DNA of 34,597 bases from Spartobacteria bacterium (lineage in GTDB: Bacteria; Verrucomicrobiota; Kiritimatiellia; CAIQIC01; Lenti-01), in contig RZYG01000007.1 in NCBI GenBank assembly GCA_009930415.1, forward strand, positions 1-34,597, given 5' to 3'. The notes beneath the pieces are model-generated. The model was not told the DNA's origin, ran no database searches, and saw nothing but the letters and a program-made list of their open reading frames with translations. This document shows, piece after piece, positions 14,657-19,878 of this stretch; position 1 is the stretch's first letter, and every line of letters begins with the position of its first letter. The translations under genes were made by a program, and so were the position numbers.

Positions 14657-15760
14657 CTACGGCGAAATCCGCGCGTCCCGCAGCTCCCGCAGCAGCTCAT
14701 TCACCCGGAACCGGCCCACCTCGCTGAACGGACTCCAGACTTCGTCCTTGTGCACGTCGTGCCAGACCGCCACCAGATCCCATTCCGGCACGACGACCAT
14801 CGCGAACCGGCCGCCGTAGCCCGAACCGAAAAACGTTCCCGGCGGCGCGTCCGGCAGCAGCCGCGTTCCGTCCGGCGCGATGCGGTTGAACCACCAATAA
14901 TATCCCAGGCAACCGAGATGGTTCTTCTGGTTTTTTCCGCCGCCGATCGAGCCCGGTTTTTTCAGCGTGCGGCTTTCCGCGCCGGACGTGCGCGGAAAAT
15001 CCGCCGGCAGCACGCCGGCCAGGGCTTCCCGGAACAGGTCTTCCCGCAACATCGTCCGGCCGCGCCACGTGCCGCCGCGCAGGACCAGCAGCGCGAACCG
15101 CGCCTGGTCCCGCACCGACATCCGCAATCGGCCCAGATGCGATTGGCGGCTGTTCAGGTCCGGCAGGTCTTCGAACCCGACCACCGCACCCAACCGCGGA
15201 CCGTTCAGCACGCCGTCGAATTGCTTCCAAGGCGTTTGGTAGACCTCGTGGAGCACCGTCCAGACCAGCAATCCCGTGCCGAAGTCGTTGTAGGCGAACG
15301 CCGCGCCGGGGTCTTCCAACAGGCCATAGCCCGAGGTCTGCCGCAACAAATGCCGGAAGGTGATGGCGCGGTCCTTGTGCCCCAGATCCGGATTCAGATC
15401 CGCCAGGGCCGGCATGAATTTCGCGACCGGCTCGTCCAAGGACGCAAGCCGGCGCTCTTCGAGCGCCTTGAACGTCAGGAACGCATAGACCGGTTTGCAC
15501 GAAGAGGCCACGTCGTGGCGATTGGTCACGTCGCCCCAGGCATGGATCATCTTTCCGCCCCGGACGATGCAGCCGGAGCCTCCCGTTTTGCGGGAAAACT
15601 CAGCCAGTTTCTCCGCGGAAAAACCCGCGGCTTCGGGGGTCGTCCAAGCCCAGTGCCGGCCGGGAAATCCCGTCGTCTGCGCCCGCCAAACGCTCCAAAG
15701 CGCGGCGGTCGCCAAGATGGCCAGCGCCAGACCGATGCCCCCAGCCGCGAGTCGCTTCAT
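14657..15760 (-). CDS. Serine hydrolase (beta-lactamase/class C PBP-like), tandem copy 1
   Basis: N-terminal TM; VASSCKPVYAF (SxxK); FAYNDFGTGLL (YxN); FFGSGYGGRFAMV. Confidence 0.85.
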   Translation of the reverse strand: MKRLAAGGIGLALAILATAALWSVWRAQTTGFPGRHWAWTTPEAAGFSAEKLAEFSRKTGGSGCIVRGGKMIHAWGDVTNRHDVASSCKPVYAFLTFKALEERRLASLDEPVAKFMPALADLNPDLGHKDRAITFRHLLRQTSGYGLLEDPGAAFAYNDFGTGLLVWTVLHEVYQTPWKQFDGVLNGPRLGAVVGFEDLPDLNSRQSHLGRLRMSVRDQARFALLVLRGGTWRGRTMLREDLFREALAGVLPADFPRTSGAESRTLKKPGSIGGGKNQKNHLGCLGYYWWFNRIAPDGTRLLPDAPPGTFFGSGYGGRFAMVVVPEWDLVAVWHDVHKDEVWSPFSEVGRFRVNELLRELRDARISP

Positions 15761-16875
15761 CGCGCCGCCGCCGTCCGCGCCGCCCACAAGTCGCGCAGCA
15801 TCTCGTTCACCTTGAACCGACCGACGTCGCTGAACGGACTCCATTCTTCGCCGGAGCGCAAATGCGCGTCGTGCCAAACCGCGACCAGGTCCAGCTCCGG
15901 AATCGCCACCATCGCGGACCGGCCGCCATAGCCCACGCCCAGAAAGGTGCCCGGCGAGGCATCCGGCAGCAGCCAACTCCCGTCGGGCGTCCGGTCGTTG
16001 TGCCACCAGAAGTGGCCCAGGCTGCCCGCATGGTGTTTTTCGTCCTTGCCGCCGCCGATGGAGGCCACCTGATCCAGATGCTCGGCCTCTTCTCCCGACG
16101 TCCGCGGAAAATGGTCCGGCAACGGTTCGCGCAGCGCTTCCCGGAACAGGTCTTCCCTCAGGAATCGCTGGCCCCGCCACGTGCCGCCGCGCAAATACAG
16201 CAGCGCGAACCGCGCCATGTCCCGCACCGAAATGCGGATCCGCCCCCGCGGCACGCGGAAACTGATCGCGGTCGGTTCGTCTTCGAACCCGAGCGCGGCA
16301 CCCAGCAGTTCGCCGTTTAGGATTTCGTCGTATTCTTTCGGCAGCCGGTCGTACACGCGGTAGAACAGCGCCCAGACCAGCAGGCCCGTGGCGTAATCGT
16401 TGTAGGCGAACGACTCGCCGGGTTCCTCCTCGAGCCCGTAGCCGGACGTCTGCTCCAGCAGATGCCGGAAGGTGATCTCGCGGTCCTTGTACTCCGCCGC
16501 CGCGTTCAGGTCGTCGAGTTCCGGCACCCAGTTCACCACCCGGTCGTCCAAGGAGCCGAGCCGGCCGGTTTCGATCGCCTTGTACGTGAGAAACGCGTAG
16601 ATCGGCTTGATGGACGACGCCACGTTCCGGCGCTGGTCGATTTCGCCCCACGCATGGATCATCTCGCCGCCATGGACGAGGCAGCCATCCCCGCCGACTT
16701 TCGCCGAAAACGCCGCCAGCTTTTCCTCGGAAAATCCCGCCTTCTCCGGCGCTTTCCACGACCAGCGTTTTCCGGGATATTTCGGGTTGTCCGTCCCCCA
16801 CAACGCCCAAACGCCGCCCGCCCCCGCCCCGATGGCCAGCGCCAGCCCGACTCCCCATGCCGCGCGGCGCCTCAC
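15757..16875 (-). CDS. Serine hydrolase (beta-lactamase/class C PBP-like), tandem copy 2
   Basis: GTG start at 16875 overlaps the stop of the upstream gene. VASSIKPIYAF (SxxK), FAYNDYATGLL (YxN), FLGVGYGGRSAMV. Confidence 0.85.
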   Translation of the reverse strand: MRRRAAWGVGLALAIGAGAGGVWALWGTDNPKYPGKRWSWKAPEKAGFSEEKLAAFSAKVGGDGCLVHGGEMIHAWGEIDQRRNVASSIKPIYAFLTYKAIETGRLGSLDDRVVNWVPELDDLNAAAEYKDREITFRHLLEQTSGYGLEEEPGESFAYNDYATGLLVWALFYRVYDRLPKEYDEILNGELLGAALGFEDEPTAISFRVPRGRIRISVRDMARFALLYLRGGTWRGQRFLREDLFREALREPLPDHFPRTSGEEAEHLDQVASIGGGKDEKHHAGSLGHFWWHNDRTPDGSWLLPDASPGTFLGVGYGGRSAMVAIPELDLVAVWHDAHLRSGEEWSPFSDVGRFKVNEMLRDLWAARTAAAR

Positions 16876-18011
16876 CGCGCCGCCTCCGTCCGCGCCGCGA
16901 GCAGCTCCCGCAGCAGCTCGTTGACCTTGAACCGGCCGACTTCGCTGAACGGGCTCCAGGCGGACTTGTCGAGATCCGGATAGACGCCCAGCCAGACCGC
17001 CACCAGATCCCGTTCGGGAATCGCAACCATCGCGAACCGCCCACCGTAGCCGGACCCGAAAAACGTGCCGGGCGGCGCATCCGCCAGCAGCCGCGTCCCG
17101 TCGGGCGTGATTTGGTTGAACCACCAGTAGTTTTTCAAACAGCCCAGATGGTTTTTTTCATCCTTGCCGCCGCCGAACGATTTCCAGACCGGCGGCAGCA
17201 TTTCGGCGTCCACGCCCGCCGTGCGCGGCAAGGCATGCGGCAGGCCGCCGCCCAGAGCTTCGCGGAAGAGATCTGCGCGCATCAGGCGCTGCCCGTTCCA
17301 CACCCCGCCGCGCAAATAAAGCAGCATGAACCGCGCCAGATCCCGCGCCGAAATGCGAATGCGGCCGCGCGGCGAATTCGGATGCGTCGCCGTCGGCCGG
17401 TCCTCGAACCCCAGCACGGCACCCAACTCGCGGCCGTTCAGCAGTTCGTCGTAGCGCGCCGGCGGCAGGTCGTGGACGCGATAGAACAGCGTCCACATCA
17501 GCAAACCCGTGGCAAAGTCGTTGTAGGCGAACGCCGCGCCCGGCCGCTCCTGGAAACCGTAGCCGGAATTCTGGCGCAAGAGATGCCGGAACGTGATGCC
17601 GCGGTCCTTGTGGTCCAGATCGGCATTCAGTTCCGCGAGTTCCGGCACCCAGCGCATCACGGGTTCGTCCAGCGATTCGATCCGGCCGTCCTGAACGGCT
17701 TGGAGCACGAGGTGGGCATAGATCGGCTTGCACGCCGATGCCACGTCGCCGCGGAACGTGACGTCCCCCCAGGCATAGATCATTTCGCCGCCGTGGACCA
17801 AACAGCCCGTGCCGCCCACCCGTTGCGAAAAATCATGCAGCGCGTGACGGGAAAATCCCGCCTCTTCCGGAGCTTTCCAGGACCAATGCTGGCCCGGATA
17901 AATCGATCGACGCGCGGCGAGGGCCTGCGAAATCGACCCGGCCACTCCGGCCGCAATCCATGCGGCGAGCGCGCCGAAGGCCATCCATCGCCTGCCAAAC
18001 CGGACGTTCAT
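16872..18011 (-). CDS. Serine hydrolase (beta-lactamase/class C PBP-like), tandem copy 3
   Basis: MNVRFGRRWMAFGALAAWIAAGVAG; VASACKPIYAH (SxxK); FAYNDFATGLL (YxN); FFGSGYGGRFAMV. Confidence 0.86.
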   Translation of the reverse strand: MNVRFGRRWMAFGALAAWIAAGVAGSISQALAARRSIYPGQHWSWKAPEEAGFSRHALHDFSQRVGGTGCLVHGGEMIYAWGDVTFRGDVASACKPIYAHLVLQAVQDGRIESLDEPVMRWVPELAELNADLDHKDRGITFRHLLRQNSGYGFQERPGAAFAYNDFATGLLMWTLFYRVHDLPPARYDELLNGRELGAVLGFEDRPTATHPNSPRGRIRISARDLARFMLLYLRGGVWNGQRLMRADLFREALGGGLPHALPRTAGVDAEMLPPVWKSFGGGKDEKNHLGCLKNYWWFNQITPDGTRLLADAPPGTFFGSGYGGRFAMVAIPERDLVAVWLGVYPDLDKSAWSPFSEVGRFKVNELLRELLAARTEAAR

Positions 18012-18059
18012 GGGGGCCTATCCTATTCCAATCCGCGCCCGCGGGCATCCAAAAAAGAC

Positions 18060-18088
18060 GCCCGGCCGCCGTTGTCGGACGGCCGGGC
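18060..18088 (-). terminator. Rho-independent terminator of leuA
   Basis: GCCCGGCCG-CCG-TTGT-CGG-(A)-CGGCCGGGC. On the minus strand it is followed by GTCTTTTTT, just downstream of the leuA stop at 18110. Confidence 0.85.
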
Positions 18089-18109: not shown

Positions 18110-19648
18110 CTAGGCCTTGCCCGCGCCTTGTTCGATGAACAGGTGCCGATTCAGCGCGTTGACGTAGGCCTTCGCCGACGCCATCACGATGTCGATGTCC
18201 GAGCCCTTCGCGGCCACCAGGTCGTCGCCGTAGCGCACCTGCACGGAGGCCTCGCCCAAGGCGTCCTCGCCGTGGGTCACCGCCTGCATCGCGAACGACT
18301 TCAGCTCGCCCTTGATGCCGGTGAGGCGGTCGATGGCCTTCAGCGCGGCTTCCACCGGGCCGGAACCCGTCGCGGAATCCTGCGCGATCTTGCCGTCCTT
18401 CTCGATCTGCACCGTCGCCGTCGGGATCGAGCGGTTGCCGGCCGAGACCTGCAGGCACTTGATGGCGTAGACCCGCGGCACGTCCGAAATGAATTCGCGC
18501 AGCAGCTCGACGATGTCGTCGTCGTACACGACCTTTTTCTTGTCCGCCAGCGCGATGAACGCGTCGTAGACCCCTTGCAGCTGCTCGGCGCTGACCTGGA
18601 GGCCCATGCGCTTGAGGTGCGCGGAGAACCCGGCGCGGCCGCTGTGCTTGCCCAGCACCAGGTCGGTGCCCGTCACCACGCCCACGTCCTCGGGACGCAT
18701 GATCTCGTAGGTCTCGCGGTGCTTGAGCATGCCGTCCTGGTGGATGCCCGACTCGTGCGCGAAGGCGTTCGCGCCCACGATGGCCTTGTTGCGCTGGACC
18801 ATCATGCCGGTCAGCTGGCTCACCAGCCGGCTCGCCGGGAACAGTTCCTGGGTGCGCACGCGCGACTGGATGCCGTAGTGGTCGTTGCGGACCTTCAGCG
18901 CCATCACCAGCTCTTCCAGCGAGCAGTTGCCCGCGCGCTCGCCGATGCCGTTGATGGTGCATTCCACGCCGCGCGCGCCGCATTCGATGGCCGCCAGCGA
19001 GTTGGCCACCGCCAGGCCCAGATCGTTGTGGCAGTGCACGTGCACCACCACGTCCTTCAGCTCCGGCACCTGCTCGTGCAGGGTCGTCAGCAGCCGGCGG
19101 AACTCCTGCGGAACCGTGAACCCGACCGTGTCGGGGATGTTCACCGTCGTCGCGCCCGCCGCGATCACCGCGCGGACCACCTCCGCCAGGAATTCCGGTT
19201 CCGTGCGCGAGGCGTCCTCGGGGCTGAACTGCACGTCCTTGCAGAACTTCCGGGCATAGGTCACGCCTTCGACCGCCTGCCGGATGATCTCGTCCTTCGC
19301 CTTCTTCAGCTTGAATTCGCGGTGGATCGCGCTCGTCGCCAGGAACACGTGGATCCGCGCGCGGTCGCCCGCCGGTTTCAGCGCCTCGGCGCATTTCTCG
19401 ATGTCGCCCTTCACGCAGCGGGCCAGCCCCGCGATGCGGCACTTCTTGATCTCGGAAGCGACTTTCTTCACCGCCTCGAAGTCGCCCGGCGACGCCGCCG
19501 GGAAACCGGCTTCGATGATGTCCACGTTCAGCTTTTCCAGCTGCCGCGCCACCTGCAGCTTCTCGTGCAGGCCCATGCTCGCGCCGGGACATTGCTCCCC
19601 GTCGCGCAGCGTCGTGTCGAAAATAATCACGTGATCCGGTTTTTTCAT
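18110..19648 (-). CDS. leuA: 2-isopropylmalate synthase
   Basis: MKKPDHVIIFDTTLRDGEQCPGASM, VHVHCHNDLGLAVANSLAAIECGA, NAFAHESGIHQDGMLKHRETYEIM, plus a C-terminal regulatory domain. Confidence 0.97.
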   Translation of the reverse strand: MKKPDHVIIFDTTLRDGEQCPGASMGLHEKLQVARQLEKLNVDIIEAGFPAASPGDFEAVKKVASEIKKCRIAGLARCVKGDIEKCAEALKPAGDRARIHVFLATSAIHREFKLKKAKDEIIRQAVEGVTYARKFCKDVQFSPEDASRTEPEFLAEVVRAVIAAGATTVNIPDTVGFTVPQEFRRLLTTLHEQVPELKDVVVHVHCHNDLGLAVANSLAAIECGARGVECTINGIGERAGNCSLEELVMALKVRNDHYGIQSRVRTQELFPASRLVSQLTGMMVQRNKAIVGANAFAHESGIHQDGMLKHRETYEIMRPEDVGVVTGTDLVLGKHSGRAGFSAHLKRMGLQVSAEQLQGVYDAFIALADKKKVVYDDDIVELLREFISDVPRVYAIKCLQVSAGNRSIPTATVQIEKDGKIAQDSATGSGPVEAALKAIDRLTGIKGELKSFAMQAVTHGEDALGEASVQVRYGDDLVAAKGSDIDIVMASAKAYVNALNRHLFIEQGAGKA

Positions 19649-19693: not shown

Positions 19694-19725
19694 CAAAACG
19701 CCCGCCAAGGTTCACTTTGGCGGGC
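19694..19725 (-). terminator. Attenuator terminator in the leuA leader
   Basis: Minus strand GCCCGCCAA-AGTGAACC-TTGGCGGGC, a 9 bp stem, followed by GTTTTGT, about 50 nt upstream of the leuA start. Confidence 0.8.
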
Positions 19726-19752
19726 TTTCCGGAAAGCAGACGGCTCCGGGCA

Positions 19753-19839
19753 TCAACCAGCGCAACACCCGTCGCCCGCCGAGGCACGGGTGTCGCCGCG
19801 CAACGCGAGAAGCAGGGCCTGGATGGAAATCGCCGTCAT
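19753..19839 (-). CDS. Putative leuA leader peptide MTAISIQALLLALRGDTRASAGDGCCAG
   Basis: 28-codon ORF (CAT at 19837-19839, stop TCA at 19753-19755) with codons ATT, ATC, CTG CTT CTC, TTG, immediately upstream of competing hairpins. Confidence 0.75.
   Translation of the reverse strand: MTAISIQALLLALRGDTRASAGDGCCAG
19765..19793 (-). promoter_or_regulatory. Leader hairpin 1 (1:2-type) of the leuA attenuator
   Basis: Minus strand ACACCCGT-GCCTCGGCGGGCG-ACGGGTGT, an 8 bp stem. The loop contains GGCGGGC, complementary to the 5' arm of the terminator. Confidence 0.7.
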
Positions 19840-19849
19840 CACGCGGGGA

Positions 19850-19878
19850 ACTAAACCATCCCCCCGGCAGGCTGTCAA
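19850..19878 (-). promoter_or_regulatory. Putative sigma70-type promoter for the leuA leader
   Basis: Minus strand TTGACA (19873-19878), 17 nt spacer, TTTAGT (19850-19855). Confidence 0.7.

Follow-up and report, generated by a model that had tools for sequence, protein, structure and literature searches.

A predicted leucine attenuator with a near-leaderless leader ORF upstream of leuA in Kiritimatiellae

The leuA locus and its leader region

The window (the whole stretch of 34,597 nt that was analyzed) comes from a Kiritimatiellae metagenome-assembled genome and carries leuA on its minus strand. The gene is preceded by an attenuator region (19694-19878) that comprises a promoter, a short ORF, a hairpin (hairpin 1) and a terminator (Table 1). 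Citramalate synthase and homocitrate synthase were rejected as the identity of leuA, the scores being far below the cut-offs of their models. The gene looks monocistronic, with an intrinsic terminator of its own predicted downstream. Beyond it, on the same strand (14657-18011), lie three neighboring genes for serine hydrolases of the beta-lactamase family, paralogues that are about 58-65% identical to each other. Upstream of the leader, also on the same strand, is an oppC-like permease gene of an ABC-transporter operon. A full-length ilvB was not found in the genome of the window (G000), and ilvC and leuC were present; because close relatives have ilvB and this genome has ilvC, the missing ilvB is probably an assembly gap.

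The promoter ahead of the ORF is sigma-70-like in its sequence, and transcription is predicted to start near 19843, as judged from the spacing to the -10 element TTTAGT. The initial annotation of this DNA had placed here a 28-codon ORF with Leu codons at 19801-19815. This ORF was present, with the translation MTAISIQALLLALRGDTRASAGDGCCAG, and its frame and Leu codons were conserved. The two Ile codons that had also been pointed out do occur in the window; they were not conserved in the family, and one member (L007) has none.

Hairpin 1 is formed by GCGACACCCG (19787-19796) with CGGGTGTTGC (19762-19771) and displays GGCGGGC (segment 2) in its loop, as annotated before; the stem was slightly longer than the 19765-19793 first assigned to it. 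Segment 2 of the window ends 18 nt ahead of the leader stop codon. The terminator was found where it had been described, with GCCCGCC (segment 3) facing GGCGGGC (segment 4), and is followed by GTTTTGT, whose short T tract has only four T. In the alternative structure, segment 2 pairs with segment 3, and the pairing is extended by a CGGG whose partner just upstream of segment 3 is UCCG, CCCG or CCUG across the family (paired in 12/12). Because this extended antiterminator takes CGGG from the stem of hairpin 1, the pairings 1:2 and 2:3 are mutually exclusive. Four parts of a classical attenuator were found: a leader ORF with Leu codons, an intervening intrinsic terminator, an antiterminator exclusive of it and a gene for leucine synthesis downstream.

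Table 1. Positions of the leader features and of leuA in the window
Feature	Position	Strand	Remarks
-35 element TTGACA	19873-19878	-	Perfect consensus; spacer to -10 element 17 nt; invariant in 12/12 family members
-10 element TTTAGT	19850-19855	-	Preceded by TG, like an extended -10
Leader ORF, 28 codons, predicted near-leaderless	19753-19839	-	Stop TGA at 19753-19755; frame intact in 12/12; in-ORF indel 3 nt
Leu codons CTG CTT CTC	19807-19815	-	Synonymous variation; some relatives have one other codon in between
Last Leu codon TTG, probable control codon	19801-19803	-	Position invariant; CTT in most f3/f4 genomes
Hairpin 1 (1:2), loop displays segment 2	19762-19796	-	Cells paired: 100% in alignment A1, 95.8% in A3
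Segment 2 core GGCGGGC	19774-19780	-	Family-invariant; covaries with segment 3 across families
Segment 2 extension CGGG	19768-19771	-	Pairs with UCCG at 19730-19733 in extended antiterminator; standard pairs in 12/12
Small middle hairpin (CCGGA...TTCCGG)	19729-19750	-	86.7% of cells paired; competes with antiterminator extension
Segment 3 GCCCGCC	19719-19725	-	Conservation and covariation with segments 2 and 4
Terminator hairpin 3:4, 9-bp stem GCCCGCCAA/TTGGCGGGC	19700-19725	-	T tract at 19695-19698
leuA, 2-isopropylmalate synthase	18113-19648	-	NCBIfam TIGR00973 leuA_bact 707.7 bits (cut-off 598.7); NF002086 760.9 (cut-off 532)
Intrinsic terminator 3' of leuA	18051-18088	-	Inverted repeat plus TCTTTTTT

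Conservation, covariation and class-wide occurrence

The element was found in 13/13 family genomes (the window included) that have an orthologous leuA and a readable upstream region. An RNA model built from 12 family sequences matched it once in the genome of the window and in each family relative with an orthologous leuA (E-values of 1e-31 to 1e-43), including G006, which had been left out of the building. When 29 relatives were searched with this model, only one extra copy was detected. The element was absent in the family members G007 and G008, whose LeuA is only 50-53% identical; in two further members (G011 and G014), LeuA was not matched at the threshold used. Within the family the leader frame was intact, the sole in-ORF indel being exactly one codon that adjoins the Leu cluster, and the Leu codons varied synonymously (CTC, CTG or TTG directly before GCG; CTG, CTA or CTC further up). 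The folding energy of the leader was unremarkable for GC-rich DNA (z = -1.43), and chance was therefore excluded through conservation, not energy.

Segments 2 and 3 did not vary within the family and their covariation there was uninformative. We therefore added families f3 and f4 and the paralogous copy (alignment A3). In this alignment, two pairs of the antiterminator 2:3 were changed on both sides, from C-G to U-A in three sequences and from G-C to A-U in the paralogue. The number of two-sided changed cells was 4 for 2:3, compared with 0.9 in shuffles (1/500 shuffles reached 4, and all slid controls gave 0), and 5 vs 1.3 for the terminator 3:4, although these counts do not represent independent events because the sequences are related. 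In hairpin 1, the changes were one-sided only and none was two-sided. Thus, the antiterminator is exclusive of the terminator and conserved, with compensatory changes, and the changes in both 2:3 and 3:4 bear out the earlier proposal that segments 2 and 4 compete for segment 3. Alignment of leaders from relatives, suggested at the time as a check, supported the annotation in its conserved Leu codons and, once f3, f4 and the paralogue were included, in its covariation.

We then scanned the leuA upstream regions from 103 Kiritimatiellae genomes for a Leu-rich ATG ORF (at least three Leu in six codons) followed by an intrinsic terminator. This combination was found in 52/103 regions from 15 families and in 0/2060 dinucleotide shuffles. 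The count is a lower bound, because L005, L011 and L012, three family members in which the element is obvious, were missed under the strict terminator rule. When at least four codons in six were required, Leu gave 39 loci and every other amino acid at most three. Further, 20 of the remaining regions showed, by motif match, a motif typical of an ilvN/ilvH-like C-terminus just upstream, and leuA is therefore probably internal to an ilv operon there.

The distance from the leader stop codon to the terminator was 24-44 nt across the class loci. The segment 2 complement ended 15-18 nt before the stop codon in at least some members of f1, f2, f3, f4, f8, f10, f13, f21 and f41; a simple contiguous-pairing search did not find a good segment 2 in most f21 members. 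Family f15 differs in that segment 2 lies directly at the leader stop codon.

In 52/52 class loci, the -10 element of the best promoter-like pair ended 0-11 nt (mostly 6-10 nt) upstream of an in-frame start codon, a placement found in only 7% of shuffles. Given this distance, transcription should begin at the start codon or about 5 nt from it, which would leave no space for a Shine-Dalgarno sequence. The leader ORF is thus probably leaderless, with a start predicted at, or at most about 5 nt from, the start codon.

Ribosome masking, proposed mechanism and alternatives

Ribosomes on the leader were modeled by equilibrium folding with ViennaRNA, using a 30-nt ribosome mask and several transcript lengths. 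When the ribosome stalled on the first Leu codons, hairpin 1 stayed mostly intact once segment 3 was out; the exceptions, at the first codon, were L003, L006, L007, L008 and L013, with competing pairings, and L012, in which hairpin 1 was weak throughout. With the TTG at 19801-19803 in the A site, hairpin 1 fell to 0-0.25 in every member. At this position, f1 and one f3 genome have TTG and the remaining f3/f4 genomes have CTT; the switch is synonymous and needs two base changes. Because a stall at the last Leu codon opens hairpin 1 in the model and its position changes only synonymously, our results suggest that it serves as the control codon. By footprint geometry, the earlier idea that stalling on the Leu codons frees segment 2 would apply to the last codon and not to the CTG-CTT-CTC cluster as a whole.

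The terminator was favored in nearly every full-length equilibrium state, and antitermination would thus have to be kinetic. During the TTG stall, the probability of the antiterminator before segment 4 ranged from about 0.01 to 1.0 among members; for the window's own sequence it was low (0.19) and dropped to 0.01. When the ribosome was placed at the stop codon, hairpin 1 was not restored and the state was mixed, with L007, L009, L011 and L012 favoring the antiterminator before segment 4. A ribosome in this position had been assumed to cover segment 2; at a distance of 18 nt it merely abuts the segment and does not clearly cover it. Thus, the masking model supports the part assigned to the last Leu codon and does not reproduce all states.

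We propose that ribosomes translating the leader attenuate transcription of leuA according to the level of charged tRNA-Leu, a reading to which we assign a probability of roughly 0.9. Sequence and comparison show the ORF, the conservation of its Leu codons, the promoter, the hairpins and the covariation; how the leader is translated, where ribosomes stall, how the switch works kinetically and how it responds to leucine we infer as follows. RNA polymerase would initiate no more than a few bases away from the start codon of the leader, and the near-leaderless ORF would be loaded by a ribosome. When leucine is ample, the ribosome would reach the stop codon and depart, hairpin 1 would keep GGCGGGC in its loop and CGGG in its stem, segment 3 would pair with segment 4, and transcription would end about 45 nt upstream of leuA. 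When Leu-tRNA is scarce, the ribosome would stall on the Leu codons, decisively at the TTG, and cover the 5' arm of hairpin 1. Segment 2, thus freed, would capture segment 3 ahead of the synthesis of segment 4, and leuA would be transcribed.

Antitermination could instead be brought about by an H-type pseudoknot, in which hairpin 1 stays and its loop GGCGGGC pairs with segment 3, until a ribosome at the stop codon melts the 3' arm and breaks the pseudoknot. Leucine would act in a similar way, except that hairpin 1 would belong to the antiterminator. Segment 2 does occupy the hairpin 1 loop, flanked by linkers of about 6 and 2 nt, hairpin 1 mostly survived stalls on the upstream Leu codons, and Actinobacteria provide a precedent for a pseudoknot at leuA combined with a Leu leader peptide (the LEU element, PMC1262725). 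However, we consider a pseudoknot improbable here, because the extended antiterminator uses the stem CGGG in 12/12 sequences and thereby excludes hairpin 1, and because families such as f15, with segment 2 at the stop codon, have no space in the ORF for the 3' arm.

The same attenuation might also sense general translation, through the efficiency of leaderless initiation, more than leucine. Initiation on leaderless mRNAs can vary with the initiation state, and the predicted near-leaderless arrangement in 52/52 loci is consistent with such a role; however, the strong enrichment that is specific to Leu codons and the conserved last Leu codon imply specificity for an amino acid and make this variant very improbable. 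Finally, a chance combination of a GC-rich hairpin, the terminator of the upstream ABC-transporter operon and a spurious ORF, with which the z-score and the oppC-like gene on the same strand would be compatible, is refuted by the class-wide conservation, the Leu specificity, the covariation and the dedicated promoter, and has a negligible probability. A leucine attenuator of leuA, as the initial annotation had it, agrees with this conservation and specificity, with the covariation of both 2:3 and 3:4 and with the enzyme identity of leuA.

Related systems and a second copy in one relative

The leader resembles leuL of the E. coli leuABCD operon (Rfam Leu_leader) in its Leu-rich ORF, in the terminator before leuA and in the position of segment 2 within the ORF. 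Measured with the same code, the distance from stop codon to terminator is 24 nt in E. coli leuL vs 30 nt here, and that from segment 2 to segment 3 is 49 vs 48 nt; E. coli leuL likewise has TTG CGC GG after its CTA run. The present leader differs from E. coli leuL in that segment 2 is displayed by the hairpin 1 loop, that leuA looks monocistronic and that no 5' UTR is predicted, whereas E. coli leuL has one. At the gathering score, no Rfam family, including Leu_leader (RF00512, the gammaproteobacterial leu leader), matched the window or 16 relatives, and at E-values up to 10 there was nothing relevant, with only weak matches to unrelated sRNA families.

Leu-rich leaders of Streptomyces lividans, LeuL1 before leuA and LeuL2 before leuS, are transcribed leaderless (PMC8079986); this trait is therefore already known in another phylum. 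Whereas the Streptomyces leuA leader is without a typical Rho-independent terminator (PMC8079986), the present leader has a terminator and a covarying antiterminator. The actinobacterial LEU element (PMC1262725) shares with it a run of Leu codons upstream of leuA and alternative structures, which in LEU include a pseudoknot. In the LEU element, however, the Leu codons pair with the Shine-Dalgarno box of leuA (PMC1262725), whereas the control predicted here is at the terminator upstream of leuA.

Naville and Gautheret (2010; PMC2965389) gave Proteobacteria and Actinobacteria as the only groups with demonstrated leader-peptide systems, to which they added Firmicutes. In the literature searched, leader-peptide attenuation was not described for Kiritimatiellae or Verrucomicrobia, although such absence is no proof. 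An earlier proteobacterial survey reportedly named Thermotogales and Bacteroidetes too. Thus, the mechanism is already known and its distribution is new: classical attenuation by leader peptide, as in Proteobacteria, Actinobacteria and some Firmicutes, is extended to a class dominated by uncultured members. The 52 loci in 15 families are diverged natural variants, sufficient to read the constraints on an attenuator, which concern the last Leu codon, the 2:3:4 triple, the spacing from stop codon to terminator and the distance from promoter to start codon. Further, the element can serve in annotation as an RNA family and offers a testable example of attenuation where the mRNA is near-leaderless and has an intrinsic terminator.

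The extra copy detected with the RNA model lies in G010 (G010:C149:9228-9378; locus L208, 2429-2579; E-value of 3.7e-25), upstream of genes for an XRE-cupin regulator and an AMP-binding acyl-CoA ligase. Its leader is MRIHQMEDLYLALRRDTRATAGGGCCVG, in which the last TTG is kept, and its segments 2 and 3 are GGCAGGC and GCCTGCC, a compensatory change. The model did not find this second element in other family genomes, though these carry homologues of the regulator. By its sequence, the second copy is a candidate leucine attenuator of genes that do not belong to the classical leu pathway; connecting it with leucine synthesis from isovalerate is speculative. A broader picture, possible but doubtful as a whole, would be that leaderless leucine attenuation is class-wide in Kiritimatiellae, with a single last Leu codon of fixed position acting as sensor and, in many families, a distance of about 16 nt from segment 2 to the stop codon, and that the device was copied in one lineage to the operon of the XRE-cupin regulator and acyl-CoA ligase, perhaps for leucine from isovalerate.

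A candidate Leu-rich ORF with a terminator was present before leuA in nine of the loci fetched from other phyla, and the device is therefore not confined to Kiritimatiellae; the placement of the -10 element relative to the start codon was mixed in these nine. Loci with a Leu-rich ORF and a terminator ahead of leuA include L107-L111, L071, L077 and L083, which belong to Planctomycetota and to deltaproteobacterial or Binatota-like metagenome-assembled genomes. Some leader cores from other phyla resemble those of Kiritimatiellae (LGLSxAHAAG, RASAG).
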